Assembly (NCBI RefSeq): GCF_003473485.1
Contig: NC_053048.1
Span: 29,198,755 to 29,262,754, forward strand
DNA: 64,000 nucleotides
Source: Medicago truncatula
Taxonomy: Eukaryota > Streptophyta > Magnoliopsida > Fabales > Fabaceae
Direction of reading: 5' to 3'
This document shows, in pieces, positions 12,169 through 62,539 of the stretch. Position 1 is the stretch's first letter, and each line of letters begins with the position of its first letter. The notes under the pieces were generated by a model that was given only the letters and a program-made list of their open reading frames with translations, made no database searches and was not told the DNA's origin. The position numbers were made by a program, and so were the translations under genes.

Positions 12169-13098
12169 AGAAAAATGCTAAATTGCACGAGATAAAATTT
12201 CGTGCTATACCCGCGAATGAGCTGTTACTTGCATAGCCATCAGATTTCTTTCAAATTACCATTTAATCCAAAACACCAAACTTATTCCATATTATTACGT
12301 CATCACCTCTCTCATTTTGCTGTAACTCATCCGATATATTTAGCTCATGTCATCATTGTAATTAATTCCCTTCAAAAACAAAATCATTGTAATTAAACAC
12401 TAGCTTCAATACGTGATTAGTCCCGGCATTTTCACTAAATTTTAGCATTGGTCCCTATACAGTTTTTTGTTTGCCATTGGTCTTGCACTTTGTAAAAATT
12501 TAAAAATTTAAGCATAATTAAACAAATTTCTATTTAACAATGACTAAAGCTACGTGGTGAAAATATTTATAGGAACCAAAACCTATCATTTTTTTTATGA
12601 GGACTAAAAATAAAATTCGTTATATTTATAGGGAATAAAAACTTAAGGGAAATTCTACCCGATATTTCGGGGACACTGGTTGAAGATACTAAAAAAATAA
12701 AATTATATAGTAGTTATTGCATTAAAAATTGTGTAATCAATCCATAAAAAAGTAAAAAAATAATAAATCATTTTTTAGTAATAATTTTCTTTTGGCTTAA
12801 TACATCATTTGGTCCCTTAACTTATTTTTGATTTTCAATTTAGTCCCCTAACTATAAAGTGTTTCAATTTGGTCCTATAAATCTTATGCCGTTTACTATT
12901 TTGGTCTTCTCCGTTAATATTTTGCAAAATTTGTTAACTCCTTTCCACATGTCATTTAAGATTTGTGATCAACGGTTGGATTTAAGAAGCATACATGGCA
13001 TACGGTGTACTCACAACATACTATAACTTCTATTGTCATCTTCTTCCCTTTTCATCTTCATATAACCTTCATCACTCTTCATAAAAAAAAAAAAAAAA

Positions 13099-13380
13099 GT
13101 TAATTAAGTTTTTAGTTCCTATAAATATTCACAGTTTTGTTTTTAGTCCCTATAAAATAAAATCACACTTTTTAGTCCCTGTGACATTTTCCTTAAGCAT
13201 TTTAGGGATTAAAAATGTTGATGGAAATTTTTTATAGGGACTAAAAATGCTAATGATAAAATTTTACAGGGACTAAAAATGCTGATGGAAAATTTTATAA
13301 AGACTAAAAAGTTTGATTTTATTTTATAGGGACTAAAAACAAAATTCTGAATATTTACAGGGACCATTTACTTAATTAAC
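13099..13380. mobile_element. Fold-back MITE nested in the MULE
   Basis: Inverted arms: gttaattaagtttttagttc on the left, and gttaattaagtaaatggtcc read from the right end, continuing with ttttgtttttagtccctata in both. Poly(A) runs flank both sides, so a target duplication cannot be defined. Confidence 0.65.
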
Positions 13381-13556
13381 CCAAAAAAAAAAAAAAATCC
13401 ATTTTTATTTTTAAATCTAATTTTTTTCTTCTCAAAAATTCATCATTTCAACTTCATTAAAAACGATATAATCAAATCCTTAGATATGGAATAAACACCA
13501 CCATCATCATCTAACTCACAATCAAACTCATTTATCAAACACACCTATCATCAAAT

Positions 13557-14050
13557 TTAAAACTCATCGGCCAAATCTGGAAAACTAACTAAAAAACCTT
13601 CAAATTTTCTGCATAATTCTAACTGAACTTCAGCGTCCTCCGCGGCCATATCGTTGGATCCATAGAAAACTACATTTACAACATTCTCTAAAGCCAACGG
13701 CATGCTTTCAATTGCAGCTAAATCCTACAATGAGAAAAGCAGAACCAACAACAGTCAACACATTTGTTCAAAAAGAAAGAAAGAAAAAAAAAGTCAACAC
13801 ATAAGCATGAAGCCATGGCGAGAAGCACACATTTTTTAGAGACTAAAATCTAATTGAAAAATCAAATATAATAAACCTGAGATGGCGATGGTGAAAGCAA
13901 GAAACTCTTGATTATTGTATCAATTTTTGCAATATTTGTTTTAATTTGATGATTGATGTGTTGCTTGTAGTGATTTGGATTATTGTTTGTTGTGTTGCTT
14001 CTGTGAAGGGTTTTATGAAGAAGAAGGAAAATGTTTGTAGAGATTTTCAT
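13557..14050 (-). CDS. Two-exon gene-like unit inside the MULE (unknown)
   Basis: On the - strand an ATG at 14050 opens exon 1 (13877-14050, 58 codons, MKISTNIFLLLHKTLHR.., Asn/His/Thr-rich). It ends at TCTCAG with a GT donor. Exon 2 (13557-13724, after TTGTAG) continues in phase 0 for 55 residues (DLAAIESMPLALENVV.., ..CRKFEGFLVSFPDLADEF) to TAA. The predicted protein is 113 residues. The exon 2 sequence has codon-like composition and looks like a captured host exon, which is the hallmark of Pack-MULEs. No family was recognised. Exon 1 is low-complexity and could be non-coding element sequence that happens to stay open. Expression is unknown. Confidence 0.4.
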
Positions 14051-14753
14051 GAATTTGATAAATGAGTTTGATTGTGAGTTAAATGATGGTGGTGGTGTTT
14101 ACTCCATATTTAAGGATTTGATTGTATGATTTTAAATGAAGTTTGAATGATAAAATTTTGAAAGGAAAAAATTAAATTTAAAAAAAAAAATTGCTTTTTT
14201 TTTTTTTATGAAGTTTGATGAATTATATGAAGATGGAGAGGGAAGAAGATGACAATAGAAGTTATCGTATGTTGTGAGTCCACGGTATGCTATGTGTGCT
14301 TCTTAAATTCAACCATTGATCACGAATCTTAAATGATATGTGGAAAGGAGTTAACAAATTTTGCAAAATACTAACGGAGAGGATCAAAATAGTAAACGGC
14401 ACAAGATTTATGGGACCAAATTGAGACACTTTATAGTTAGGGGACTAAATTGAAAACAAAAAATAAGTTAAAGGACCAAATAATGTATTAAACCTTTTCT
14501 TTTTTAATATCTTTAACCGGTACCGGGAACATCTGTTAACATGATCCGAAACTTAGTTAACCATATAAACAATAGTAGCATTCAAGAAGAATATGTAGCA
14601 CATCCCTCGTATAAACTATAGCAATACCAATTAAAGGCACTAAATGAGATATACTATGCATTAAATAACATGTTCGTGCAATCCACGCGAAAATTCATTC
14701 GGTCTATATAGCAAGACTCTTTATCGAAACATAATAGGTAATAGTAAAGAAAT

Positions 14754-33181: not shown

Positions 33182-34548
33182 CTAGGCATTTTCTTTAATT
33201 TGTTCCTCTATTAACTGTTCCTTTATCTTGGCCACATCAATATGTGTTTTTCCCTCCATTTTTCTCTTCATGGATTGCCTTAAATAATCTCCAAACTTGA
33301 CTTTCTGGTAAATTTTGGTGTTTTCAGCATCTATCATATGATCAAATGGCTCAATTTCAACATCATCTCGAGGGATCAAAAATGATGCATGGGAAGTCCT
33401 TCTTTTGTTCTTATTTGTTACTGCTCTGTGTTCTACACTTTTGTATTTTCCATTACTCAATATCTGTTCATATTGAAAAAGGAATAAACTCAAAATTAAT
33501 GTAGGTATATATACTTCAAGTGTTAGTTGTGTTCAATACAAATATAAGTCAGAAGGGTTTAGGTAACTCAACTCATTTGAGCTAACAGAGTTGAAGGTCT
33601 TGAGTTCGTCAAACCCGAATGAAGGAGGATAAAACTAATTTAACAACAAATTACTAACATTTTCCATTAATCCTCTTAAAAAACATTTTCCATTAAAAAG
33701 TCAATTATGCCAATCGAGGTTAACATCTAGGAAGCACTGATCATAAAGATGTTGAAACTACACATGACTTCGAGATTAACACTTGGACACCGTTAATGAT
33801 TTTAAAAAATGATGGATATTGAATATTACCCTATACATATGTGCATGTTTGATACAAACACACTTGACACACCTCACAAAACTTATTTTTGAAGTGTCGG
33901 TGTTATATAGGTTAACATATTTCGATTGACATTCTAGTGGAAATTGTCTCTGATTTATAGTCCTTTTTGACTGTTGGATGATGTATCTTTCCAAATTTAA
34001 ATATTTGGTTTATAATATAATTTTATGGACATAAGTGGTGATGAGTTTAATCAGCTTCAGTTAATGATACTCAACTTTAAATACTTCCTCGATCAATTTT
34101 CTATTAGGTTTTACTCCTATCATCCGAACTTCAGATTACCTTGGACCCTTTTTCTTGAGAACATGAGTATTAAGAAAAATAAAATGTACCTCTATAACAT
34201 CTCCAACATTGACAACAAGAGCATCTGATATTGGAATAACTGGAACCCAATTTCCTTTGTTTCGAATTTCTAACCCAGGCACATCATCATCTTGCATAAG
34301 AATGGTAATGGTGCCTGTGTCAGAGTGTGAGCTCAAACCCAATACTTGATCAGGTGTGTTGCATGTAGGGTAATAGTTTACACGTGAACATTGAAGTAAT
34401 TCTTTATGCATCCCAAAAAGAGCATGTTTCTCCAACCCCATAATAAGAGACAAAGAACTTAGAAGTTCCTCACCAACTCGTTTCACTTCACTTGAATATG
34501 CCTCTATTATTTCACTACATAAGCAAATAAATTTCATCAAAATTACAA

Positions 34549-34626
<78 letters not shown>

Positions 34627-35767
34627 ATAAAAATTCAAATGTGTATATTTCATAATGCATACTTGAATCCATGTGGGGTTTTTGGCCAAAATTGAAGCTT
34701 CCTGTATCTCTTGGGATAAATCATTAAAATTAGTGAATCTGACCAATCAAGTGTTTGCTCCTCAGAAACTACATATGCATGCCCATAGCCTTGTATGTCA
34801 TTTGAGGGCATTGCATACTTTTCCTTCTCTTCTATTGGAAGGTTGAAAAACTCATCTGATACATTCCTCATTCTTTGTATAAGTTCTTTTTGTAGACCAT
34901 GATTCACTACCTGCAAAGATATATATTTGCAATCGTAATTCTTAAGAATCGAATTCGAGTTTTTTGACCCATTCATTCTTAGGAAAAGTTCATTAATCAT
35001 TTGTTTAGACAGTCTTATATTTAATTAGGTACTACAAAATCTTTGAGAAGGTTCTAGATATAACAAGGTCTCAAAACATTCACATAATTTTGGGACCGAA
35101 ATTTTGTTTGTTTAAAACCGTCCCAAATCTATCTAAAAAATTAAAAATGGTTCGGATGAAAACTTATCCGTGTAAAAACACATTTTTTCTAGTAGTTGAC
35201 TATGAATTGTTTTAATAGTATATGAATAAAAATTATTATTTTTAGATATGTTAATGTAAAATTCATAAATTTAAAAATTGTCAACCCGATGAACCAAACC
35301 AACATGTGCTTCATTGGTTTGGTTCAGTTTGGAAGAAGTCATTGTAAAATCCAAATCAAACCTACCAATTAGTATATAATAAAAAATAGACACATTAAAT
35401 GTTTTTTTTTTAAAGAAGACACATTAAATATGTTAAAATTGTATATTTTTGTTTGTACATTTTTGTGCAACTCACAATTCTATAGTTGATGAATTACCTG
35501 AAAGAAACCCCACTCCTTGCATGCAATCTCAAGTTTCAGTAACTCCTCCATGCTCCCATTTGAAAGCAGTGTAAAATCAATTACAGGAATCTCTGAAGAA
35601 AGTTGAGGCATGTAGTTTACTTTCTCCATTTCTTCTTCATTCCTCACATATTTTGTTGGAACTTCCAAAGGATTCATCTTCACCATTTCTTGAACATTTG
35701 GAACTGGCAAAGATGGAGCATAAGTGGGTGCTTCTTCCATCTCAATATCATCTATGTTAACACTCAT
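33182..35767 (-). CDS. SRG1-like 2OG-Fe(II) dioxygenase, copy A
   Basis: Four exons on the - strand: 35498-35767, 34663-34910, 34190-34514 and 33182-33463 (phases 0, 2, 0) give 374 residues. The N-terminal DIOX_N region (LPVPNVQEMVK; SEIPVIDFTLLSN) is followed by the jelly-roll 2OG-Fe(II) oxygenase core. Predicted iron ligands are H236, D238 (SSHSD) and H293 (VEHR); 2OG is bound by R303-x-S305 (KRRTS). Family members (DOXC class; SRG1, codeine demethylase-like) hydroxylate or demethylate small molecules in the cytosol using 2OG and O2. The substrate is unknown. Five tandem paralogs share this structure; this is the most 3' one. Intron 2 holds a 72-bp TA repeat. Exon 1 has MSVNIDDIEMEEAP, four codons longer than copies C and D. 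A TATA box ctataaaag is 48 bp upstream. Confidence 0.88.
34552..34623. repeat. (TA)n microsatellite in intron 2 of copy A
   Basis: About 36 TA units in the 148-bp intron. It makes up half of the intron and is absent from the same intron of the other four paralogs. Confidence 0.95.
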
Positions 35768-35814
35768 TTTTCATTTGCTTGGTGGTGTAGATTGTTAGCT
35801 TTGAGATTTGAGAA

Positions 35815-35823
35815 CTTTTATAG
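35815..35823 (-). promoter_or_regulatory. TATA box, copy A
   Basis: ctataaaag on the - strand in the context ctataaaagttctcaaatc, conserved in copy D (48919-48927) and, degenerated to ctttaaaag, in copy C (44977-44985). It is missing in copy E. Confidence 0.6.
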
Positions 35824-35889
35824 TGTCACTACCATATGTGATTTATACCTAGTGAATCCACATGGAAATAATAATTTTAATACTTTTAT

Positions 35890-36000
35890 CTACATGGCTA
35901 TGGAGTTCCAAATGAAATAAATTAACTTTCAATTGCATAGGTGAGCTGGTTCCTAATAGTATGCTGCAAGTATGAATGTGCAAGTCAGCTCATTGATCGC
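35890..36000 (-). promoter_or_regulatory. Conserved upstream block of the array, copy A
   Basis: ttccaaatgaaataaattaa, ctttcaattgcataggtgag and gcaagtcagctcattg recur upstream of copies C (45148-45240), D (49100-49195) and E (52575-52690). In the other copies the block reads aacttcaattgcttaggtaa and atgtaaagaaagcaaaata. Its function is unknown; it may simply mark the duplicated unit. Confidence 0.45.
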
Positions 36001-36569
36001 CAGATGTTACTCTTTATAAAAGACAAATAACGGGGCTGCTGGCTATGTCCAGATGTCATGATACAATCGATAAAAATATCAAAATTGCGAAGCGAATACG
36101 TGATTAGAGTTTAAAGTCCAGCTTCTCTAATTATGTGTGCAAATTTTCAATTCTTATTTTCATTTTATCTATTTAAAAAAATATATATAATAGGGGGCTG
36201 CTACCATCAAGCAATTTTTAAACGAAAATGTTTACATTTTTTTTTTTTTCAACCAATGAGAAAGTGAGGTAGAGTTAAACATGTCATGTCATCAAAGTGA
36301 AAGACTTACCGTTCAACCAGCAGGTAACATGAATTTTTCTACTTTATTTTTCAAACTAATATTTACATTTATGAAATTATTTTATTAAAATTAACAAAAC
36401 TTTTACGGTTTTTTTTTTAAAAAAAAAAAACGATACTAAAGAAAAATATTTTGAACACCGTAGCTTCGCAAAATTCTTCCTCAACCGGATATTGTTCCCA
36501 GCATTGGATTCACCATCGATGATAATCACTAGAAAGGAATGTTATCTTTGGGTGGTCTTAGTATAAAAT

Positions 36570-37340
36570 TTGGAGGTTTAAACGGCCTCGAGCAAACCGA
36601 CTGAACCAGTTTTCAACTGCATCCAAACCTGAGGGCAACCACACAAATGAGTTAGACACCACATGTTCAATCAAAACCTTAAGGCATTGGGTATACGGGT
36701 CCTCTCATTTATAGGTTGCTCAATCTTAACTCTTCCATCTAATGTGGGACTTTAACTCACACTTAACACATCACAATTCCTATGTAGCAAAGAATTTCAT
36801 ACACATGCAAAAAGCTCAATCGTTTCTCAATGTTCTATTTCCTCCACCACTCTAGCAAGTGTCAAGGCTAATGAATAAGAAGCAATGAAATCAGCATCAA
36901 TCTTTAATATTTGTTTGCAGCTGCTACGGATGAAAGCATCTGGATTCCAAATATCACCTAAAGTAACGTAGTTTCCAGCCAAGTCTACGAAAAACCCAAG
37001 ATAGTCATGTTCCTATTTGAGTGAAATCACATGCACTAGGCCCTTGATCATCATCATGGTCATCGGAACAACGATTAGAGGCAAAGCTCAGTGGATAGCT
37101 ATAAAGACAATTCTGGAGGTTTATCTCATTCTGACAACAGTTAGCACAACAAACTTTGAAACCCACACTAGATAACCATTTTAGCACGATCAACCTTAGT
37201 TGGTCAGCATAATCTGTAATTTTCTGCGAAAGTGCAATTCGATTTTCTGTTCCAGTAACAAAACACCATAGAAAAGTGTATGTGAATGAGGTTGTCCTTG
37301 ATGAAGGAGCATTCCAATACAAATAGAAGCAAAATGCATT
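36570..37340 (-). pseudogene. Degenerate unidentified gene fragment
   Basis: On the - strand, readable blocks are separated by frameshifts: LVHYNNLECILLLFVLECSF (about 37310-37370), ENRIALSQKITDYADQLRLI and VLKWLSSVGFKVCCANC (37110-37250), EHDYLGFFVDLAGNYVTLGD and IWNPDAFIRSSCKQILKIDA (36880-37015), VWLPSGLDAVENWFSRFARG (36590-36650). The blocks read like a real, conserved protein but change frame at least twice. No family was recognised. It lies between dioxygenase copies A and B and is probably a captured or decayed gene. Confidence 0.4.
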
Positions 37341-37559
37341 CTAGATTATTGTAGTGTACAAGAACCTTCTTCAACACTTTCTTGATAACCTCTTCAGCAT
37401 TCTCATTTTCTTTGGCAGGGAGAAAAATAGTTGGTTCACTTGTAGGCTTTATAATAAGTTGGAGTCAATCAATGTTGCATTAAGAATGACTCTCAATTTC
37501 TCTTATTTAATAGCAAATGATTCAAAAAGGAGGCAGTGAATGATTCAGAGCCGGAATGA

Positions 37560-37860
37560 TCAATTTCTGGACGTTCCAGGTCATGAATATGGGAACCATT
37601 GTTTAGTTCCTCCTGCCCTAGTATCATCAACACACGCAATATTCAGGCTAAAAACACAAAAGAAAAGCAACTGGGAACGTTTTCAAATCCACCTGTGGAT
37701 GACGGTGAAACAACCATAGCCACCATGTGAGAGCAGAGCCTCGCATTGCTTTTGCAGTTTCAATATCTTTTCAGTGCAAAGAATACACCAGTACATGTCT
37801 TCACTGCTTTCAAAGTTTGAAATAGTCAAACCGATCTTTGGCTAGAGGGAATGAGGTCAA
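37560..37860 (-). pseudogene. Possible Gypsy gag remnant
   Basis: The - strand blocks FESSEDMYWCILCTEK and, one frame over, AKAMRGSALTWWLWLFHRHP then QVDLKTFPVAF resemble the gag pattern (RG.AL.WW....HP..DW..F...F..). It is broken by frameshift and stops. Identification is tentative. Confidence 0.3.
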
Positions 37861-38254
37861 AAAGGGCCAATTGTTACGACCCAATTTGAGTCACACTCCA
37901 GAATTTAGAGAAGGAAACTAGAGTAAAAAGAAGAGGAAATTGTTATACTTTTCATTGATTCTAATCATGAGAGAATACAAGATTTATATAGGCTGATGCA
38001 TACACACAACAAGGGTAAAAGTATAACAAAATGCATAACATATTTTCTTCTAGAACTAGCTGAGTCATTTTTCCTTTCTAAAATAAGCTGTCACCCCATC
38101 AGTCTCTCTTATGGACTTGTCAATTCGTTACGCCTTCATGTGATCATATTAGTAAATAGGGACAACTTCATTCATTAATAATTATTCAGGAACAATTCAG
38201 AACATGAAAAAGTAACATGAGACAGAACAAGTTTATTTTCTTTTCATAAAGTTG

Positions 38255-40265
38255 TTATTCCCCTATCCATTCATTTATCTTTGTTGCATTGATATGTGGT
38301 TTTCCTTCCAATTTCGTATTCAGCACGTGCCTCAAATACTCTCCATACGTGGTGTCCTTGTACATCTTGGGATTTTGATCATCTATCATATGATCTAATG
38401 CCCCGATTTCAGCATCACCCTGAGGGAACAAATATGATATAAAAGTAGTCCTTTTCTTGTTCTTATTTGTGATTGCTCTATGTTCCACACTCTTGTATTT
38501 GCCATTACTCAGTATCTGTAAGGATTGCAAAAGGAAAAAAAATTTCATAATTAAGTGACTTTATCTTTTGGTATTCACTAAAGAAAGAAATCAATAAGTA
38601 CTTACCTCTATTACATCTCCAACATTAACCACTAAAGCACCTGGTATTGGAGTAATTGGTACCCAATTTCTTTTGTATCGAATTTCTGTCCCTGATACAT
38701 CATCGTCTTGCATAACTATTGCAATGGTCCTTGGATCAGAGTGCGGACTCACACCTAGTACTTTCTCGGGTGTGTTACAAGGAGGGTAATAGTTCACACG
38801 GAAACCTTGATGTACTTCTCTATGTAGATCAAGAAGACCATGTTCCTCCAACCCCAAAAGCAATGACAGAGAATTGATAACTTCCTCGCCAATGCGTTTA
38901 ATTTCATTTGAATATGCGTCTATCGTATCCCTATGTTAATATCACAAGAGATACTCGAAATTAATCCTACCGGATAAACTAAGATACTATGACATACTAA
39001 AATATCAAGAATACCTACTTCAATTCCTTAGGCCAAAACTGAGGCTTCCTGAACCGCGTTGGGTAAACGAGCAAGACTAGGTAATCAGACCAATCAACTG
39101 AAGTATGCCCGTAACCTTGCATATCATCTGGGGGCATTGCATACTTGATCTTCTCTTTTATTGATAATTCGGAAAACTCAGCTACTGCATCCTTCACTCT
39201 CTGCATCAGGTCTATTTGCATGCCATGATTCACTATCTGGTAAAAGTAATTGCATTGTAAAGATATTAATGCATTGTTGTGAACTTGTTGAACTTGAACC
39301 TATTATTACTACAAGTGAAAAGACAGTCACTAATGTGCACATCTATCTTCCTTCAAAAAAAATAAAAATGTGCACATCTATCTATTTTTCTATCGCGTTT
39401 CATTGTATATATATTTTATTTTACTATGTTTTATCTATTTTTACTATGTTATCTGAACCTATCTAAATTTTAAAAGAAGTGTATGGTTATGAACACATTG
39501 AGCAGTTGGTAAGTGCAAGGACAATAATATGCAGGGGCCGAGGCTCGAACCCCAGATTCCCGACTTCTCCACACTTCAAAAGTATAGGTCCAACCACTAT
39601 GCTACTTCACGAATTTTTTTCTGTTTGAGTAAATCACCAATTCTACCCTGGTAAAATAGGGGTCGGACATCCATACACCTAAAATTTGCAAATAGAAAAA
39701 AAAAATCCAGATTTTGAATTATGTTGAGCAACTTTGTCCTTCACTAACTTGTATCTAATTTATTGTCAAATAAGTCCCTCAATTATATCACTTAATAACA
39801 AATTAACCCCTAAACTATATCACTTACTATCAAACTAGTCCTTACAAGTTTTTGAAAACTCGGTATCCGACCCAATGACTGATTAATCTGAGGGGTCCAA
39901 TCCCACAATCCACTTGCGGGCCATTTAAACTAGCAATTGAAGTTAACAAAAGGACTTCACAGTAAATCTAATGGTGAAGACATAGATACCTGAAAGTAAC
40001 CCCACTCTTTGCAAGCAAAATCCAGTTTTAACAACTCCTCTTTGTTCCCATTTGAGAGTAATCCAAAATCAATGATTGGGAGGTGAGATGAAAGGTGAGG
40101 CGTATAAAGGTGTTTTTCCATTTGTTCTTCAGTTCTAACATAGCTTTCAGGAACATTGAAAGGATTCTTCCTCGCAGTTTCTTGAATATATGGAAAAGTG
40201 GGTGATTCCTCCTTCTTATGAGTTGTTCCTAACACATGATCAGCTCCTCCATTGAGAGTACTCAT
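38255..40265 (-). CDS. SRG1-like 2OG-Fe(II) dioxygenase, copy B (divergent)
   Basis: Exons 39990-40265, 39019-39236, 38606-38930 and 38255-38515 (- strand) give 359 residues with the phases of the other copies. The start at 40265 (MSTLNGGADHVLG) was chosen because it aligns with the paralog starts; the frame is open further upstream. Iron ligands H228, D230 (SPHSD) and H285 are present. The 2OG motif, however, is R295-T-T297 instead of R-x-S. Exon 2 lacks ten residues relative to the paralogs, including the YVVSEEQTL-type stretch before DWSD and three residues before the donor, which is now GTAGGT. Intron 1 carries a SINE (39484-39612). It is the oldest or fastest-evolving member and could have altered cofactor use or be decaying. 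Confidence 0.8.
39484..39612 (+). mobile_element. tRNA-derived SINE in intron 1 of copy B
   Basis: cattgagcagttggtaagtg as box A region, box B ggctcgaaccccag, antisense to the host gene. Belongs to the 9253 family. Confidence 0.65.
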
Positions 40266-40404
40266 CTTTGCTATGCTTACTGTTCGCTGTGTGGATTGAT
40301 ATGGTCTGCGTTGGTGTTGAGTATGAGATCCACTCAAGAACAAACCTGTCTGGAAGCTGTGTAAAAACATTAATTTGGAAAAAAGGAAAACTGTTTTTTT
40401 AAAT

Positions 40405-40500
40405 ACGAGGTCCTCGCGAGCACTTAAGAACACTACATAATATATGTAAGGTCCAACGTTTAAATCTCGGCTAACACAAAAGCACAGTACATTTTTTTTT
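40405..40500 (+). mobile_element. Degenerate SINE upstream of copy B
   Basis: ggtcctcgcgagcacttaag, aacactacataatatatgta and aggtccaacgtttaaatctc parallel the 9253-type SINE but with many changes. Confidence 0.4.
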
Positions 40501-40559
40501 AAGGAAAAAAATACGGTACACCTGTACGGTAACACCTGCCAACAATAAAAAATTAACAT

Positions 40560-42130
40560 CCTAACAAAAATAAATCAATAATAAAAAGTCCACGTTAGAA
40601 GGTCAATTGCTAATCACTAGACACTTTGACAAAAAAAATTCCTTCAGAAAACAAACTTGATAAAAAAATGATAATGTAGTTAGTTAATTTGTCCATTTTA
40701 AGTATAAATGTACCCTCCCTCACAAGAAAAAAAGTATAAATGTACCTCTAAAATACTCCTTGCATTCATTGTATGTAGTAAATTTCGTCTTTCCATATTT
40801 CAACACATTAGTATTATTAATCGAGGGTTTTTTTTTTAAAAAGAATGAATAAATATATCTAGTATTTAAAAAAAAAAAAGGCTTATATCTAAGGGCAAAT
40901 TTTTAAAAAGAATGTCATATTTATTTTTTATGTAAAATTAATTATTTTATTCAAATTGTGTTATTTACATGATAGTATGTACAATACTTTTAATATAGGT
41001 TAAATTTACCATTTTATCTCTTAGCTAATTTTTGTGTTTTAAATTGGTTCATAACTACTAAAATGATCAATTTCGTCATTTATCTATTTTGTCATTAATC
41101 ATATTGGTTCTTTTTGTATGTTTTAAATCCTAAATGTTTTCTCTCAATAAAAAAAATTCTAAATGTTTAAGATTGACCAACATTACAAATGATCCGTCAT
41201 ATATTTCATCATTTTTTGAATTTAACACTTTGATTTTTATTTTTTTTTTAAAAAGGAGAGCATCGGAGGTATATATGACAAACCTCTGATGCTTTTTTAA
41301 TTTTATTTTCCACAATTCCATCGAAACACTCCTTGACAGATTCTTCTCCAAATCAAACAATGCATGATCCATCTCTAAATATCATAAGTAACAAAAAAAA
41401 TAAAAAATTATGGTCCAAATCTTAAATTGTGGAGAGTTAAAATTGGACAATGACAAAAGGTGGATTTAATTAAACCTTAATTTAAAGGGCTAAAACAAAG
41501 TATATATTATCATTAAAAAGAAAAAACACGAAAGTAGATAACATGAGCATAAACAAAGAATAAAACAAAGTTCTTTAAAAGAAATAAAACAATTGACGAA
41601 AAATAAGACCAAAACTAGATTTTTGACACGTGCTCCGCTCGAATTTATTGTAAAAGGATTGACATACGAATAATAAAATGCAATATATAATAGGTAACGG
41701 TGAAAAAATAACACGTGATAATTCATAGTAGACAAAATAAAACACTTCATAAAATGTATGAAATCTGAAAATATTATAAAAGAAAATTGGTAATCATATC
41801 AATAATTCGGGTATATATAACCAAGTTTACATAGAAATTAGGGTAGCCGAAAAAAAGTATAAAGTATAAGGTATCAAACGTGATCATTGATATGCTCATA
41901 GTTTCTAGAACAAACGTGCGACATCAAATAAGTATAGAAAATATTTTCTTAAAAAAAAAAAAAAAAAAAAAGGCAAGAGGATATAAATGAAATTGGTGCG
42001 ATGCGTTTTTTAGATGAAATTTGTTAGATTAAATAATTGCAAACATAGTAAAGCAAATGAGCGGGAAAAATTAGGTTAAATTGTTGCAGACGTAACAAAA
42101 TTAATAAATAAGGATAAAACAAAAACATAT
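40560..42130. other. Intergenic, no gene seen
   Basis: AT-rich. Phrases such as taggttaaatttaccatttt, atctcttagctaatttttgt (40998-41040) and the partly complementary ggtggatttaattaaacctt (41459) hint at an eroded fold-back element of about 470 bp. Confidence 0.3.
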
Positions 42131-42132
42131 TA

Positions 42133-42262
42133 GTCCCCGTGAGCTTAGCTCAATTGACAGGGACATTGCATAATTTATGCAGGGGCAGGGGTTCAAACCC
42201 CGGACACCCCACTTCTCCACATTTAAATGTGTGAGCTCCGGCCACCGGTCTACTAGACAAAC
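42133..42262 (+). mobile_element. tRNA-derived SINE (well preserved)
   Basis: ccccgtgagcttagctcaat, tgacagggacattgcataat, box B ggttcaaaccccgg, then acaccccacttctccacatt and a poly(A) tail. Best preserved copy of the family in this window. Confidence 0.8.
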
Positions 42263-43064
42263 AAAAAAAAAAAATTATACAAATGACCAATAAACAAAGA
42301 ATATGCTTATGCATGTTGAAGGTAGAGGTATGGAATGAACCTGGGAAATGGAGGCTCTGGGTCTGGGCCACGTCGTTATATGTTAATTTGTGGCTACTGT
42401 GAAACCCTTTACTTATTCATTGCACTTATTTTAAGCTACTCGCGTAGTTAGATTTTGAGGATGCATATGATGTGTTCGATGAAAGTTGGAAGCCAAATAT
42501 AAATTAATAACCTTATATTCTATTTGATTATTTGTTTTGTTTAGAGAGCTAGCATTGAACTTGCAGTATTAAAATACAATTCTGCAATCAATGGTTAATT
42601 TTGTTTAGATTTTGATTCACATATAAATGGCTGTGTTCCGGACTGAGACGAGACCCATCTGGAATATACTTTACCATGAGGGTAGACACGATGTACGTTG
42701 TACCATCAACGCACATAGAAATCACCTTATGCAATCAATCACCACCATGTGGTGAAGATCAAACGGTGATCTCATGATCAATCTGCAAATCTCTATTATA
42801 GAAAGACCTCCAGTGAAAGATACACATTATTACCTCTCACTCCCATTTATGTAGCTGCCGCTGCCGTCCTCCATCGTGTTTCCACTTCTCCGGCTGTATA
42901 TGAATTTATTTTATTTTATTTGCAATCAACCAATCATTTGATCAAAAGTTTGAAAGTGCATTGTTTAGAGTTGTTTAAAAATACACATTTGATGTAAATG
43001 ATATTTTTTAAGCATTATACAAGCACAATTATAAAAATGAAAAGGTAAATTATTCTTCTATTAC

Positions 43065-44933
43065 TTATGCCTTTATCTTTGCCACATCAGTGTGTGTTTT
43101 TCCCTCCATTTTTCTCTTCATGGATTGCCTCAAATAATCTCCATACAACACTTTCTGGTACATCTTAGGGTTTTGAGCATCTATCATATGATCAAAGGGC
43201 TCCACTTCAACATCATCTCGAGGAAACACAAATGTTGCATGAGAAGTCCTTCTCTTGTTTTTATTTGTCATTGCTCTGTGTTCTACACTCTTGTATCTTC
43301 CATTACTCCATATCTGTTCACATTGAAAAAAGAAATAAACTGAAAATGTTGATATATAACTAAGTGACTGTTGGTATTTCTTTCTTTTCAAGCTTACAAT
43401 GTACTCTTTATTTAGTGTTGATTATATCACTAAAGAAATAGTTCAATTATGCCAATTGGAGTAGACACCTATCAAGCACAAATAGAGACACGTATATCGG
43501 ATACGACACAGACAGGAACACTTAGACAGTAGTAATAATTTAAGAAAATGTAACTGTATGTGTCGGTGTCAAACATAAAGATATGTCACCTAACACGCCT
43601 TCAATGCGAATTGTCTGTGCTACATATGTTGACACGTCAAGTTGGACCTTATTACACCAAAACTGTCATTGATATTTTTAATTTTCTCTACAAATTTAAA
43701 AAATTTGTTTACAAAAGAAAGAAATTATTCAATTACCTCTATTACATCTCCGACATTGACAACTAGAGCATCTGATATTGGAGTAACGGGTACCCAATTT
43801 CCTTTATGTCGAATTTCTAATCCAGGCACATCATCATCTTGCATAAGTAAAGTAATGGTGCTTGAGTCGGAGTGTGGACTCAAACCCAACACTTGCTCAG
43901 GTGTGTCGCAAGGAGGGTAATAGTTCACACGTAAACCCTGAAGTACTTCTTTATGCAGTCCAGCAAGAACATGTTTTTCCAACCCCATAATAACAGACAA
44001 AGAACTTAGAAGTTCGTCACCAACTCTTTTTACTTCACTTGAATATGTATCTACTATCTCCCTGCATTACGATATTAATTCCATTTAAAAATCACAATAT
44101 AAGTCTTTAATTAACACTAGCATTTCTGATTGAAGGTGTCCGGTGTCTGACACTGACATTGACACATGTATTACTTTCAATTAATTCATTTTATTAAATT
44201 ATTACCGATTCCAACTTGTCGGTGTTAGTGTTTTATTCGGTTTCTGTGTTTGCATCGGTGCTTCATAGCAAGATTTACATACATGTTTTAAAGAATCAAA
44301 ATCATATTTGATTTTAGATTTAAATTGTAAAAAATGCATACTTGAATCCATGCGGTGTTTTTGGCCAGAATTGAAGCTTCCTGAACCGGGTGGGATAAAT
44401 GAGTAAAAACAATGTGTCTGTCCAATCAAGCGTCTGCTCTTCGGAAACTACATAAGCATGACCATAGCCATGTACGTCGTTTGAGAGCATTGCATACTTT
44501 TCCTTCTCTTCTATTGGAAGTTTGAAAAACTCATCTGCTGCATCTTTCATATTCTGCAGAATTTCTTTGTCCACACCATGATTCACTATCTGCAAAGGTA
44601 TTTCTAATTTCAAGCAGCACTTGATGGTTAACCAAACAAAATCTTATTAACTCACAGTTCTGTAATTTCAAGAGTTACCTGAAAGAAACCCCACTCCCTG
44701 CATGCAATCTCAAGTTTCCGCAACTCTTCCATGTTCCCATTTGAAAGCAGTGTTAAATCAATGACAGGAATCTCCGATGAAAGGTGAGGCGTGTAATGTA
44801 CTTTTTCCATTTCTTCTTGATTCCTCACGTATCGTTTAGGAACTTGCGAAGGATTAATCTTCACCATTTCTTGAACATTTGGTACCGGTAAAGATGGAGC
44901 AAAAATTGGTGCTTCATCTATGTTAACACTCAT
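43065..44933 (-). CDS. SRG1-like 2OG-Fe(II) dioxygenase, copy C
   Basis: Exons 44679-44933, 44342-44589, 43737-44061 and 43065-43313 (- strand; phases 0, 2, 0) give 358 residues. The N-terminus MSVNIDEAPIFAPSLPVP matches copy D. The active site is complete: H231, D233 (SPHSD), H288 (VEHR), R298-x-S300. The protein ends early at ..DVAKIKA, about five residues shorter than D and E, because a stop arises where the paralogs read KE(Q/H)VI; the trimmed part lies beyond the core. The TATA equivalent is weakened to ctttaaaag. A SINE has inserted about 490 bp upstream. It is otherwise an intact gene; substrate unknown. Confidence 0.88.
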
Positions 44934-45423
44934 CTTTAATTTGCTTTGTGTAGATTGTTAGCTTTAGATTTGAGAACTTTTAAAGGGTTATATGTAAAGT
45001 TTTTTTTGTTTGTACTAAGAGGGAATCTTGAGATTTGTTCTAGAAATAAATATACTTCTGCCTAGCCAATCCAAATAGAAAAATCACTTTAGATTACTTT
45101 TATCTACATTGTTTTGCATCTATGGAATCTATGCCTTGGATTGGAGTTTCCAAATTAAACAAACTTCAACTGCATAGGTAAGTTGGGATATGAACAAAGT
45201 TAGGTCATGTAAAGAAAGCAAAATAATGCAATTTGCAAATATGTTGTGTTTTATACAAAATTAATATCATAGTCTTATTTCCTTTTCGTGTATCATGTTT
45301 TGCAACGAGCAAAATCGATCCTTCATATGCAGTAAAAATAAAATAATTGTCTAGAAATATTTTTTTGGTCGCTTGACTTATTTTTAAGGTTTTTTTCGGT
45401 CCTTAAACTTTATAATGAGTCAT

Positions 45424-45512
45424 TTTGGTCTTTTTTTTTTTTTTTGTGGTGGCCGGGATTCGAACCCCGACCTTGCATATATTATGCATTGTCCTTATCA
45501 ACTGAGGTCTCT
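45424..45512 (-). mobile_element. SINE inserted in the promoter region of copy C
   Basis: A poly(T) run then ggtggccgggattcgaaccc, cgaccttgcatatattatgc and attgtccttatcaactgagg is a reverse-oriented 9253-type SINE. The surrounding sequence cattttggtc / tcttaact is contiguous in the paralogous promoter of copy D (about 49323-49342), which is the empty site. Confidence 0.75.
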
Positions 45513-46428
45513 TAACTTAAATGTGTTAATTCAAGTTAGTTCTTTTTGTCTAAACTGTAGTCAACTGATATTTGCAATGTCACCTTAGCTATCTATGTAT
45601 GTAAATATTTTTCAGTTACAAATTTACAATAGCAACTTGATGAATGACTATAGTTTCCAATTTTTTTTCCTGTTGTCTTACTATGCAATTTGATGTTCTG
45701 AGAGCTTTGTTTGCATACCAATCAATCTTGCTTTATTATTTTTCGCTATAGTGTGAATATTGTGAAATCTATTACTTCTTTGATGTTCTTATGTTTGATG
45801 AAAACTTGAAAGTCTTTAAAAGTTGGTAACTTTTGGATCTGTTACAGGTTCCGGAACATAATTAGTATGAAAATCATTTTTCCTTGGCTGTCTGGTATCA
45901 ATCTTTCAATATTGGGACCACTACAAGTAATTTTTTCCAAGGAGACGATGAGCCTCAACCTTGAGAGAATTATAAGATTCCTAGTAGCCATAATATTTCC
46001 ACAATCACGACCTGGCCTGATGGTATTGTTTGCCAGTAACAATCAGTTCATACTTCATATCACTGGTGTTGTTCAAATCCATCACTAGGATAACCGTTGT
46101 CGATGCCTGTCTTCAGCTGCAGGTCTTATGCGGTGAAAAACAGGTTATGAAACAGATTGGTTCGTGAAACGGGTTATATTTTAGACCACTTTATATTAGA
46201 ACCTTAAAACCTAGAGCTTGTATTACCTTGTAAAAAAGTTTTAGGGTAATGTTGTTATGCTTTTATTCATCTGATTTAAATACAGAGAGTACACACAGAG
46301 TTTAGGGAAACAGAAGCAAAACATACAATAGAATAAAACAGAAAATCCCTTAAAAAACAGAAAATATGCACTAATAACAAACAGACAATCACGGAATCTT
46401 CATCTTTTTCCTCATTTTCTTTGAGTTG
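45513..46428. other. Spacer between copies D and C
   Basis: No gene. Open frames on both strands at 45842-46088 have no recognisable domain. From about 46200 the sequence (gggtaatgttgttatgcttt, tatt-catctgatttaaata) matches the 3' flank of copy A near 32970, marking the end of the duplicated unit. Confidence 0.4.
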
Positions 46429-48871
46429 TTATGTCACTATTACATGTTCCTTTATCTTTGCCACATCGGTGTGTGTTTTTCGCTCCATTTTTCTCTTTAA
46501 GGAATGCCTCAAATAATCTCCATACTTGACTTTCTGGTACATCTTGGGGTTTTGAGCATCTATCATATGATCAAAGGGCTCAACTTCAACGTCATCTCGA
46601 GGGAATAAAAATGATGCATAAGAAATCCTTCTTTTGTTCTGATTTGTCATTACCCTGTGTTCTACACTCTTGTATTTTCCATTACTCAATATCTGTTCAA
46701 TGACGAAATAAGTGAATCGTGCGAATTGAGCATGACATCTATAAAGCATTAATTAAGGTACAATAACTAGACATGACATCGACATGAACATTTACAAACC
46801 GATCATAATTAAAAAAAATATAATAGTGACGGAATGCAAAAACACACACACATGCATACCTATATATTGGTATCAGACAAAAATGTGTTACCTCTATAAC
46901 ATCTCCAACATTGATAACTAGAGCATCTGATATTGGTTTAACCGGTACCCAATTTCCTTTGTTTCTGATTTCTAATCCAAGCACATCATCATCTTGAATA
47001 AGTAAGGTAATGGTGGTTGTGTCAGAGTGTGGACTCAAACCCAATACTTGCTCAGGGTTGTTGCAAGGAGGGTAATAGTTCACGCGTAAACCTTGAATTA
47101 ATTCTTTATGCAGTTCAGCGAGAGCATGTTTCTCCAACCCCATGATAATAGACAGAAAACTTAGAAGTTCCTCGCCAACTCGTCTCACTTCACTTGAATA
47201 TGCCTCTATTATCTCTCTACATTAGCAAACGAGTTTCATCAAAATCACAAAATGTACATATATAGCGGATTCTATTAGGGTTTGAATTTTGAACATCAGT
47301 TATTTAATGAATCTGAAAAAGGAAAATTTGCTTATAAATGTGACCGGATGGAGTATAGTGGAAACTTTATATTTGCTTAGACCAAAATGTCAAAAGTGCA
47401 TACTTGAATCCATGTGAGGTTTTTGGCCAAAATTGAAGCTTCCTATACCGGTCGGGATAAATGATTAAAACTAGTACGTCGGACCAATCAAGTGTTTGCT
47501 CCTCAGAAACGACATAATTTTGCCCATAGCCTTGTATGTCGTTTGGGAGCATTGCATACTTTTCCTTCTCTTCCATTGGAAGTTCAAAAAACTCATTTGA
47601 TGCATCCCTCATTCTTTGTATAAGGTCTTTTTCCACACCATGATTCACCATCTGCAAAGATATATATTGCAATCTTATAAAGCACTTGATTAAAACCAAA
47701 CAATATGTTGAACTCAAACTAAAATCTACACCACTTCTAAACACTTCTGTTATCCATGTTCCTTTCTATGTTGAACTTTCTTAATTTCCATCAAAGTTGT
47801 ATCCCTAGTGTTTTCTGTAATTTCTTATAATATTAAGAATCGCATTATCATAGCAACTACGACTTAAAATCTTTATTATTACTAGCAAAAAGACGGGCAC
47901 TCACGTGCTTGTCATTTCACTCCGTTTATTGTGCTAACGCGTGTAAATTATAAACGATTTTTATATTAAATTTTGATTTTGATTAAAATTACAAATACAA
48001 ATATTTGTGACTTTAAAATTGTAACAAACCCAAAAAACTATGTTTATCTTTTTCAAAAACAAAAATAATTTAACCAATATAATTTTTATCTTTTTTAATA
48101 TCACTAACAATATAACATTAATTTAGGAAAATTTATTAAATGGTATTGAAATTATAAAAAATTCAACCCAAAATCTCCATCCTCTTCTATATATAGATAA
48201 TATTGTTCTATTGTAGTGAGATATTTCATATCTTTCTTGTATTATATTTGTCCCTAATTGTAAGTATCTTTTAGAATAAAAAGGTGTAGTTAAATAAAAG
48301 TCTCATTTAAAATTACTAGATATATTCATTATTTTTTCTTCTAAAAATATACTATTTAGTAGTACTAATTATTTGTTTTAGAAGATGAAACATAGAGTTA
48401 GATACGTCTGTATTCGTGAGCTTACTTCAGTTGGTATGGACAATGTATAATATATGCAAGAACTGGGTTTAAACTCCGGTCACCAAAAAAAAAAAAAAAA
48501 AAAAAAAATACGTCTATGCACAAATATATAAAGTTAGACATATTAAATACGCAAAAATTACAAGTTTTTGTTTGTACATTTTTGTGTAACTCACAATTGT
48601 ATAGTCGATGAATTACCTGAAAGAAACCCCACTCCTTGCATGCAATCTCAAGTTTCAGCAACTCCTCCATGTTCCCATTTGAAAGCTGTGTAAAATCAAT
48701 TACAGGAATCTCAGAAGAAAGTTGAGGCATGTAGTTTACTTTCTCCATTTCTTCTTCATTCCTCACATATTTTGTTGGAACTTGCAAAGGATTAACCTTC
48801 ACCATTTCTTGAACATTTGGTACTGGTAAAGATGGAGCAAAAATGGGTGCTTCATCTATGTTGACACTCAT
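46429..48871 (-). CDS. SRG1-like 2OG-Fe(II) dioxygenase, copy D
   Basis: Exons 48617-48871, 47404-47651, 46892-47216 and 46429-46692 (- strand; phases 0, 2, 0) give 363 residues. All active-site residues are present: H231, D233 (SPHSD), H288 (VEHR), R298-I-S300. Exon 1 is a mosaic: the first 25 residues (MSVNIDEAPIFAPSLPVP..) match copy C, while the rest (VPTKYVRNEEEMEKVNYMPQ) matches copies A and E. Intron 1 (965 bp) contains a SINE and a long poly(A) run. A TATA box ctataaaag sits 48 bp upstream of the ATG. It appears functional; substrate unknown. Confidence 0.88.
48413..48510 (+). mobile_element. SINE in intron 1 of copy D
   Basis: attcgtgagcttacttcagt, tggtatggacaatgtataat, box B gggtttaaactccggt and an A-run of more than 20. 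Antisense to the gene. Confidence 0.65.
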
Positions 48872-48918
48872 CTTTAATTTGCTTGGTGGTGTGGATTGTT
48901 AGCTATGAGATTTGAGAA

Positions 48919-48927
48919 CTTTTATAG
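48919..48927 (-). promoter_or_regulatory. TATA box, copy D
   Basis: ctataaaag on the - strand, 48 bp before the start codon, same context as in copy A. Confidence 0.6.
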
Positions 48928-49199
48928 GGTTTTACATATGCCCCTACCTAGTCAATCCAAATAGAAAAATAACTTTAGTTGTATTTTTTAAAAGTTGTTT
49001 ATTTTGTAGTTTTATTTTGGTTTTAGTTAAGAGGGAATCGTGAGATTATCTAGAAATAAATATACATTTTGCCTAGTCAATCCATATAGAAAAATCACTT
49101 TAGCATACGTATTCTTTTAAATAAACTTCAATTGCTTAGGTAAGCTAGGATATGAACAACGTTCGCTTATGTAATGAAAGCAAAATATTGCAATTTTAC

Positions 49200-50540
49200 A
49201 AACATATTTATACGAATTAGTCCATTCATATACAGTACAAATAAAATATAATAAGCTTAAAAAAAAAAAAAAATTGTCGGTGAACGTAACTTTAAGGTAT
49301 ATTTTGATTCTTTAAAACGTGTCATTTTGGTCTCTTAACTTGAATATGTTACTCCATTAAATAAAACTTAAATTTGTTAATACAAGGTAGTTCTTTCTAT
49401 CTAAAGTGTGTAGTTTAAATCGGAGTTACGTCATATATACTAATTTAATCATCTGTTGGAAACTCATACACACGAGTCGAGGAGTTGAGGTTTGAATTTC
49501 AATTATGACGTTCGGCCTAATAATTTCAGCATATAATAGAGATTTTGTTTAAATAAGATTAAAAATAGAATAAAAAAATTATATTTTATTTCACTCCACT
49601 AATTTCCATTACATTTAGCTTGTACCACTTGAAAATCTTCCATCCAAATTTTTAATATGATGTTTATATTTGGATTGATGGAACAAGAAGGAATGGAATG
49701 ACACAGTGTTTCATTGTTTGCATATATTATAATAGGATGGAATGAAACATAATGATATTCATTCTATCACATTCCATTACATTTCTCTATTTTGCTTACC
49801 CTCCATGTTAGAAGGTACGGGAAGGATTCTTTAGTTTAATTAACTTTATAATTATTTAATGACAATTTTATCCTCGCTTCTATATTCTACACTCGTACAT
49901 ATAACCACGGCATGATATACTTTACTATGACGGTCCATGCAATGTATGTTGCACCATCAGCACACGCACTACCCTCCCTAAAAAAAAACACGCACTATCC
50001 ACTACAAGACTCCTCACATGCATGGTTATCTACCATGTTCTTAGCACCACTAACCACTTTGAAGAGTGAGGGAGAAGACACACTCTCTGGTGGAGATATG
50101 CATCAAGGACCTTGTCAATGGACACGCTCTCTGGTGGAGATATGCACCAAAGACCTTGTCAATAGATCATGTCAAGGAGAGGAGATTGAAGCAGAACATC
50201 GGGCGCCACAATCTCACTAGGATGGGAGTTATCATGCACTACTTGTGAAACTAGTCGAATGAAGGATTAAGCATTGTAGATCATGTCGTTTAGCTAGTAC
50301 GCAATAGTTACACCGTACGTCAATACTTTTTCATGCATTGTAACTAACACATATGTTTTATTTAACAATCTATGACTGGTTTAAATATAGAGAATACAAG
50401 TATAGATTTTAGGGGGGAAATCAAGACATACCAAATATTAAAAAAAAATAAAAAAATAAAAAAAACACAGAAAATATGCATTATTAAAAGGAGAAAACCA
50501 CATAATCTCCATCCCTTTCCTCATTTTCTCAAACTGTCCA
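49200..50540. other. Spacer between copies E and D
   Basis: Contains the empty SINE site (about 49337), a diverged tRNA-like repeat (49455-49550), a MITE-like AT-rich stretch with repeated ttccattaca/ggaatggaat motifs (49600-49800), and a block at 49905-50240 resembling 42650-42860. No gene. Confidence 0.4.
50079..50166. repeat. 44-bp tandem duplication
   Basis: Two units (50079-50122 and 50123-50166) share ctctctggtggagatatgca and ccttgtcaat with three or four differences. It lies downstream of copy E. Confidence 0.85.
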
Positions 50541-50554
50541 TTTTCTTTTATTTT

Positions 50555-52434
50555 TTATTTCTCTATTACTTGTTCCTTTATCCTTGCAACATCAGTGTGT
50601 GTTTTTCCCTCCATTTTTCTCTTCAAGGAATGCCTCAAATAATCTCCAAACTTGACTTTCTGGTACATCTTGGGATGTTGAGCATCTATCATATGATGAA
50701 ATGGCTCAACTTCAACATCATCTTGAGGCAACAAAAATGATGCATTAGAAGTCCTTCTCTTGTTCTTATTTGTCACTGCTCTGTGTTCTACACTTTTGAA
50801 TTTTCCGTTACTCAATATCTGCTCATATTGAACATTGTAGATATATGATTAATTAAGTAATTTTTTTATAAAAAAAAATTAAGAATTAATTAAGCTCAAC
50901 TACTAGATAAGGTACCAAGAAACTTTTTTTATAATTAATTAATTAACTTTTTTTTATAAAGAAATTAATATGAATTCAGCATATCCTTGTTAACCTTAAA
51001 CCTGAGTGATTTGTATGATAAACTAGATAATGTATTAGGAACTTAATCAAGATCAACTACTATTTAGGCCCAAACTTAGAAAAAGGACACAAGAGGTATT
51101 GTAAAGATTAGTATGGGAAAAATTGTAATTTGATCAAAGTAACTTACCATTTTCCCCATACTATTATTGAAGATTAATATGGGTGAAAATTGATTTGTAT
51201 GTTTGATTTTAATCATTGAAGATTTGATTAAAGTATTTCAAATTATGTGTCAATTGAATCATCTTCCACATTTGATAAATTTTCACTTTTTCAAGATGAG
51301 GGTGTTACATTGAGGGATAAGATAAAAATGAATATACCTCTATAACATCTCCGATATTGACGACTATGGCATCTAATAATATTGGATTAATTGGTACCCA
51401 ATTTCCTTTGTTTCGAATTTCTAACCCAGACACATCATCATCTTGCATGAGCAAGGTAATGGTGCCTGTGTCAGAATGCGAACTCATACCTAATACTTGC
51501 TCAGGTGTGTTGCAAGGAGGGTAATAGTTCACACGTAATGCTTGAATGAATTCTTTATGCAATCCAACAAGAGCATGCTTCTCTAACCCCATAATAATAG
51601 ACAAAGAACTTAAAAGTTCCTCGCCAACTCGTTTCATTTCACTTGAATATGCCTCTATTATCTCCCTACATTAGGAAATGAATTTCATCAAAATCACAAA
51701 ATGTGCATATATTGTTTAAAAATTTATATATGTACATATTTATTTTTATTTCAAAACACATACTTGAATCCATGTGGGGTTTTTGGCCAAAATCGGAGGT
51801 TCCTGTACTGATCGGGATAAATGAATAAAATTAGTGCGTCTCCCCAATCAAGTGTCTGCTCCTCAGAAACTACATAAGCTTGGCCATAGCCTTGTATGTC
51901 GTTTGAGAGCATTGCATATGTTTCCTTCTCTTCTATTGGAAGTTTGAAAAACTCATCTACTGCATCCTTCATTCTCTGTATGAGTTCTTTTTGCACACCA
52001 TGATTCACTATCTGCATAGGTATATATTTGCAATCTTAACAAAACTTGATGAAAACCAAACAAAAATTTGACATACGTTCACAAATATGTCTATATATAA
52101 ATGGATATTTTAGTAAAAAATAGGCACATTAAATACGCGAAAATCCTAACCCAAAAAAAAAAATGCGCGGAAATTATAGTTGATGAATTACCTGAAAGAA
52201 ACCCCAGTCCTTGCATGCAACCTCAAGTTTCAGCAACTCTTCGATGCTCCCATTTGAAAGCTGTGTAAAATCAATGATAGGAATCTCTGAAGAAAGTTGA
52301 GGCATGTAGTTTACTTTCTCCATTTCTTCTTCATTCCTCACATATTTTGTTGGAACTTCCAAAGGATTCATCTTCACCATTTCTTGAACATTTGGAACTG
52401 GCAAAGATGGAGCATAAGTGGGTGCTTCTTCCAT
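50555..52434 (-). CDS. SRG1-like 2OG-Fe(II) dioxygenase, copy E (altered start)
   Basis: Exons 52192-52434, 51764-52011, 51338-51665 and 50555-50818 (- strand; phases 0, 2, 0) give 360 residues from the in-frame ATG at 52434 (MEEAPTYAPSLPVP). The active site is complete: H227, D229 (SSHSD), H285, R295-x-S297. One extra codon (NPILLDAIVV) lies in exon 3. The ancestral ATG at 52457 (ATGAGTGTTGAC..) is now out of frame because four bases are missing relative to copy A. It opens a 27-codon overlapping uORF ending at 52374. The upstream segment that carries the ctataaaag TATA box in copies A and D is deleted. The coding region looks intact, but expression is doubtful. Exon 1 is nearly identical to that of copy A. 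Confidence 0.8.
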
Positions 52435-62109: not shown

Positions 62110-62539
62110 GTGAATTACTAAATTTATTGCTTCTTTTTCAGGGATAATACGTGAGTGTAGTTCGTTATGATTTTGGTAATCCGATTTTGAATGATTGTGG
62201 TGGTGTTAATTATAAATTTAAAGGTTTGATTATGTGGTTTTTGTTGAAGTTGAAATGATGAATTTTTAAAAGAACAAAAAAAAGTTAAAGATGATGAAGA
62301 TTGATGAAGATGAGGGAAGAAGATGAAGAAAAGAAAATAAATCAGATGTTGGTGATACACAATTAGATCTGATAGACCTCATTTATCCAACGATCTCCTT
62401 TTTTTGGGGGTTAAAATGAATAAAATAGGACCAAATTGAAGGATGGAAGGAAGATAAAGGAACAATTTGGAACGTTTAATAGTTAGGGGACCAAATTGAA
62501 AACAGAAATAAGTTAAGGGACCAAACGATGTATTAAGTC
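62110..62539. mobile_element. Truncated relative of the 12794-14494 MULE
   Basis: The right end ttagggg-accaaattgaaa..taagttaagggaccaaa and gatgtattaag matches the right terminus at 14440-14494. The inner part (ggtggtgttaattataaatt, taaaggtttgattatgtggt) matches the leader of the insert at about 14090-14130. The left half, including the two-exon gene-like unit, is missing. Confidence 0.55.

Follow-up and report, generated by a model that had tools for sequence, protein, structure and literature searches.

The DNA analysed here (the window) is a stretch of 64,000 nucleotides from Medicago truncatula, corresponding to C7:29198755-29262754. It contains a Pack-MULE element carrying a fragment that resembles part of a HASTY/Exportin-5 gene, and the features of this element are compiled in Table 1. 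Genes of other kinds are situated further along the window. A cluster of 2-oxoglutarate/Fe(II) dioxygenase-like ORFs occupies 33182-51637 on the minus strand; two tested pieces of it match PF03171 and PF14226, and by its look we take it to be a tandem SRG1-like family. A thaumatin-family protein is encoded in a single open frame at 55122-55847, also on the minus strand (PF00314, E 4.7e-81).

Table 1. Features of the element and of its captured DNA (window coordinates)
Feature	Position	Strand	Remarks
Pack-MULE element	12794-14494	cargo on -	TSD and inverted ends, without transposase
9-bp target site duplication (TSD), left copy, TTTTCTTTT	12785..12793	.	exact flank of element
9-bp target site duplication (TSD), right copy, TTTTCTTTT	14495..14503	.	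exact flank of element
Left TIR, outer block	12794..13095	+	12794-13065 paired at 92%; homology reaches 13095
Right TIR, outer block	14195..14494	-	pairs with left outer block
Left inverted repeat, inner block	13382..13539	+	
Right inverted repeat, inner block	14054..14210	-	
Nested MITE, separate high-copy family	~13099-13380	.	interrupts left arm; absent from C6 copy
Subterminal sequence 'unit X', holds ATG (14050-14048)	13927..14053	-	native to transposon family
Captured HASTY/Exportin-5 fragment	13572..13931	-	by BLAST: part of an exon, a full intron and exon, and the 5' start of the intron that follows
Predicted chimeric exon 1	14050-13877	-	174 nt, 58 codons; ATG at 14050-14048
3' end of parental exon, captured	13926-13877	-	alignment with both HASTY loci
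Captured parental intron, whole, own donor and acceptor	13725..13876	-	152 bp; 7% different from donor
Parental exon, captured whole as far as its donor site	13598..13724	-	
Start (5') of the following parental intron, forming codons of exon 2	13572..13597	-	
Stop codon TAA	13557..13559	-	element-derived sequence at inner junction

The original prediction, made from the sequence of the window, described this element as Pack-MULE-like, transposase-free, bounded by long inverted ends and flanked by a perfect 9-bp duplication. All three characteristics were borne out. The duplication TTTTCTTTT is exact at both flanks. The outer TIRs pair over 272 nt (12794-13065 with 14223-14494) at 92% complementarity, and the arms are continued inward by an inner inverted block of 154 nt (13386-13539 with 14054-14207) at 85%. 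No ORF of at least 100 aa is present within 12794-14494, and none of the 14 stop-to-stop frames of at least 40 aa in the element matches a transposase profile of Pfam. A transposase was rejected as a candidate, three of 13 frames having given only weak, sub-threshold Pfam matches to unrelated families (E 0.015 to 0.21). The Mutator-like assignment is a putative one, based on the length of the TIRs and the size of the TSD and independent of any transposase. Just outside the element, at 12532-12646, lies a sequence related to the nested MITE at 74-78%.

The terminal sequence of the element, GGCTTAATACATCATTTGGTC, was found in the genome with at most two mismatches (299 forward and 347 reverse matches, 646 in all), compared with 0 and 0 for a control sequence. 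Seventeen paired elements were assembled, nine from the visible pairs among the end-pattern matches listed and the rest consisting of the window element and loci from the DNA searches; L009 and L031, in which the end pattern is not present at both ends with at most three substitutions, were left out, as were L017 and L032. A perfect 9-bp TSD flanks 10 of the 17 and a TSD with at most two mismatches 13 of the 17; the other four (L033, L036, L040 and L042) have 3 to 7 mismatches. No autonomous, transposase-bearing partner was found among the 17 paired elements, all of which are shorter than 2.4 kb, or at the ends among the matches listed. Nine internal frames of the relatives L012 and L014-L017 were compared with Pfam, giving two weak, sub-threshold matches and no recognised host gene, and the interior of the relative on C4 matches nothing else in the genome. 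Other members of the TIR family, 1.15-1.4 kb in length, are L030, L031 and L033. Within the window itself, a lone arm of the family is found at 62187-62537, with pieces that are 76-87% identical; it is probably either a solo end or what is left of a truncated member.

The sequence between the right inner block and the captured DNA, termed unit X, contains the ATG of the predicted gene-like unit. A genome search with unit X returned 14 matches, which cover, beyond the five loci that carry the cargo, six further loci (C4:52.10 Mb, C8:47.41, C4:64.12, C7:50.03, C4:1.49 and C1:16.62). At all six of these, the whole or part of unit X lies inside TIR-family sequence. It is contiguous with a TIR arm at five of the six, and at C8:47.41 it is internal to an element and accompanied by a portion of the inner block; C4:1.49 and C1:16.62 retain only about 40 nt of it. 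The unit X frame is broken in several family members. As judged from these loci, unit X belongs to the transposon family itself, and a second host gene as the source of exon 1 was ruled out by the same occurrences.

HASTY is a gene tied to small-RNA export. The cargo of about 360 bp is 91% identical, over 361 aligned columns and with the intron included, to C1:31628939-31629291, and 73% identical to a longer HASTY locus at C7:54184107-54184439. The match to the C1 locus greatly exceeds what chance would give. At the protein level, the 113-residue product of the two joined exons matches the Pfam Exportin-5 family (PF19273) with E 6.1e-5 in an alignment that spans the splice junction, and a trimmed version of 79 residues gives E 3.5e-5; both values are below Pfam's cut-off. 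Exon 2 alone reached only E 0.016 against Pfam, so that the chimera was needed for the Exportin-5 match. Neither exon 2 by itself nor the 113-residue chimera found a meaningful match among the sequences of solved structures (best E 0.25 and 0.62, respectively). According to the alignments, the captured sequence is HASTY/Exportin-5-like with its donor on C1, and the splice borders are the donor gene's own.

A scan of the genome with PF19273 gave 16 matches, all at two loci, on C1 and C7. The C7 HASTY locus, the longer of the two though not necessarily an intact gene, matches profile positions 1 to 823 apart from 135-212, a stretch whose exons are seen in the DNA alignment. At the C1 locus, there is no profile match between approximately 306 and 507, and the alignment of the C1 and C7 DNA has a gap of about 1.9 kb in C1 at the same place. 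The C1 segment 31627589-31627726 does match the Exportin-5 profile. In the available part of PMC7895968, an association signal for seed sulfur, MtrunA17Chr1_31627600, is placed inside an EXPORTIN5 gene, and three 'HASTY 1' genes are tabulated for this C1 signal, with TPM values of 0 to 1.09 in seven samples. The HASTY-like locus as delimited here (L010/L011, C1:31625930-31631466) contains this signal, as far as it is described in that part of the article. Since about 1.9 kb is missing and published expression is close to zero, the C1 donor looks like a decayed HASTY duplicate.

These results bear on the supposition, in the original prediction, that the element holds captured host coding sequence. 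That supposition was supported, in that a C1 donor was found at 91% identity with the intron included. A search for a full-length parent gene with intact flanking exons had also been proposed. It succeeded in part: the donor locus was found, the exon sequence adjoining the captured piece is open there on either side, and the intron was co-captured, but this donor is about 1.9 kb shorter than the C7 HASTY locus.

The predicted two-exon frame on the minus strand was confirmed as an open frame with good splice borders. The donor CAG/GTTTAT and the acceptor TTGTAG/GA join 58 codons in phase to an exon 2 (13724-13557) of 55 codons and a TAA, giving 113 residues, and the alignment shows that these borders match those of both HASTY loci. 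It is apparent, however, that the predicted 'complete two-exon gene-like unit' stands only in this sense. Exon 1 owes approximately 41 codons to the element and only the last 16-17 to HASTY, so it is mostly element DNA, and exon 2 ends in parental intron. The view of exon 2 as captured host coding sequence is correct for 13724-13598; from 13597 to about 13572 the frame passes the parental donor site and reads through intron, so that the 3' part of exon 2 is not parental exon, and the TAA is transposon sequence. Unspliced parental intron and transposon DNA make up the final 13 codons of exon 2.

The cargo is present at five loci: the window, C6 and three truncated loci on C8. The C6 locus (C6:8668104-8669458) is a second full-length copy within TIRs, with a cargo that is 98% identical and without the nested MITE. 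The window and C6 elements are 2.1% apart (28 of 1356 columns, with 62 further columns gapped). The presence of the loaded element at more than one site, including a C6 copy with TIRs, indicates mobility after capture, although the A9 duplication flanking the C6 copy is weak and lies in a poly-A run. The three C8 loci, near 15.19-15.20 Mb, hold part of the intron along with exon 1, whole or partial. Of these, the first and third (C8a and C8c) belong to an inverted duplication of 6.36 kb at 98.8% and have no recognisable TIR at the 5' edge. The surrounding region (C8:15187000-15206999, L027/L028) also contains, beside the truncated cargo copies, TIR-NBS-LRR-like ORFs as judged by translation.

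The junction between unit X and HASTY is the same in all five cargo copies, and two neighbouring derived bases are common to the four copies compared (window, C6, C8a and C8b; C8c, a duplicate of C8a, was omitted) relative to both HASTY loci. This common junction and these common bases point to a single capture event behind all cargo copies. Sites 69, 105 and 112 of the comparison conflict with a simple single-capture tree, a pattern that repeated changes would produce. Between unit X and the donor, the junction homologies are an A-run on one side and TGAGTTT on the other. These are short and A/T-rich, and a switch at short homology is a putative mechanism of capture that would agree with them. 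With respect to the arms, the same arm differs between window and C6 by 3.4% (left) and 2.7% (right), and the two arms within a copy by 8.3% and 9.5%. Because the arms differ more within a copy than between copies, they were already unlike when the two copies separated.

The element is very probably a transposase-less Pack-MULE with a HASTY cargo whose two-exon frame is a by-product, and a neutral by-product is the most likely reading of the gene-like unit. The ancestor would have been a non-autonomous Mutator-like transposon with long TIRs and inverted copies of subterminal sequence. In a transposition or repair event, we infer, it would have taken up about 360 bp of C1 HASTY/Exportin-5-like DNA, the cargo being joined at the A-run and at TGAGTTT. 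The loaded element subsequently moved, and copies of it are found on C6 and at the window site on C7, with truncated cargo copies on C8. Comparison of the window and C6 copies shows that the other MITE entered the left arm of the window copy later, since the C6 copy is without it. Start and stop of the two-exon frame stem from the element, whereas HASTY supplied about 58 codons and the splice sites. The frame probably yields no selected protein, and any transcript would presumably begin in the TIR or outside it.

A very unlikely alternative is that the frame is a young chimeric protein gene, in which a spliced mRNA driven by the TIR would encode a 113-residue product of element and HASTY sequence that is kept by selection. 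The open frame with parental splice sites is in keeping with such a gene, as is the available part of PMC13317346, which reports that fragments of over 1,000 genes are carried by rice Pack-MULEs and that some of them are expressed as chimeric transcripts. C8a and its inverted duplicate C8c likewise keep the exon 1 frame open from the ATG into the HASTY part; the in-frame fusion is therefore ancestral and not confined to the window. Relative to the C1 donor, the captured exons of the window show 5 synonymous and 6 non-synonymous differences (pS 0.136, pN 0.044), small counts that look constrained. Evolution of the donor itself enters into this comparison, however; of the five synonymous differences, at least one (position 35 of the site comparison) is a change in C1. 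The open frame itself says little, since it survived in 79% of simulations with 6 random changes to the donor exons and in 65% with 11. Comparisons between element copies argue against the chimeric gene. The captured exons of window and C6 (58 codons) differ by 0 synonymous and 3 non-synonymous changes, exon 1 of window and C8a by 2.5 synonymous and 9.5 non-synonymous changes on 35.5 and 138.5 sites, a neutral ratio, and the C6 frame is ended early by a 34-bp deletion; purifying selection on the frame is not seen in these comparisons, in which the counts are small. The whole frame is open in one of the two copies that hold both exons and in one of the five cargo loci, namely the window. The read-through intron and transposon sequence in its last 13 codons also weigh against a gene. 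The original prediction had named, among the results that would refute it, exon 2 substitutions between element copies with no coding bias; substitutions between the copies do lack such bias, and this, together with the frameshift in the sole other copy found with both exons, tells against the reading as a complete gene.

Somewhat less improbable, but still unlikely, is action of the element via RNA, whereby small RNAs from the cargo would silence HASTY proper or the HASTY-like locus on C1. The cargo has 81 exact 21-mers in common with the donor, 38 of them wholly within the exon parts, and 6 with the C7 HASTY locus, where the longest run is 26 nt. Maize elements with captured genes are reported, in the available part of PMC13317346, as siRNA reservoirs able to silence their donors, and the low TPM values of the donor's annotated genes, as tabulated in PMC7895968, would agree with silencing. 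The cargo is, however, single copy in the element and forms no hairpin, and low expression is equally expected of a decayed duplicate. A bolder proposal, for which the probability appears slight indeed, is that the element, a transposon with a piece of a component tied to the plant's own small-RNA export, makes RNA (small RNAs or a decoy peptide) that lowers HASTY or HASTY-like activity and so weakens a silencing-linked host pathway. It is extremely unlikely, finally, that the HASTY piece arose as a processed copy of an mRNA or by a separate insertion that had nothing to do with MULE capture. The region is rich in transposons, and C8a and C8c are without a TIR on one side, but the parental intron is present and collinear, and its retention rules out a retrocopy origin. 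Also against this rival stand the subterminal junction common to 5 of 5 cargo copies and the loaded element within TIRs at two sites.

In comparison with known systems, the element is a Pack-MULE of the ordinary sort whose descent is unusually clear. It is like the Pack-MULEs of rice and other plants in its long TIRs, its 9-bp TSD, the absence of transposase and a host fragment with an identifiable donor, as well as in having more than one copy after capture and a chimeric frame that uses element sequence; nothing mechanistic differs. For this one Pack-MULE, the donor, the exon-intron-exon piece, both junctions, a sister insertion and truncated relatives are all identified. It also provides a caution for annotation, in that a two-exon gene model can arise unselected, with start and stop from a transposon and splice sites from a donor. 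The state of the donor and the transposed fragments may matter to those following the seed-sulfur signal, as described in the available part of PMC7895968. Neither HASTY capture nor the present element was found in titles or abstracts of the literature on Pack-MULE, Pack-TYPE, legume or Medicago MULEs and HASTY, among the matches listed, and the word Medicago is absent from the main text of PMC8903248.

Two described elements resemble the present one in particular respects. Tomato PM-ZIBP, as presented in the available part of PMC3310237, is similar in its size class, in an inner second block of inverted arms, in a single captured fragment and in several copies. In contrast to tandem or multiple-TIR elements such as PM-ZIBP, the inner block here is a continuation of the arm together with the subterminal repeat, rather than a demonstrated tandem duplication of the TIR. 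MuTAnT of Medicago truncatula, according to the available part of PMC4486113, is also Mutator-like with long inverted ends. MuTAnT, for which the end used in mining is given there as GGGGTTTGCTAGAACA, targets TA repeats, whereas the present family begins with GGCTTAATACATCATTTGGTC; with this different terminal sequence, the family of the element is not MuTAnT.
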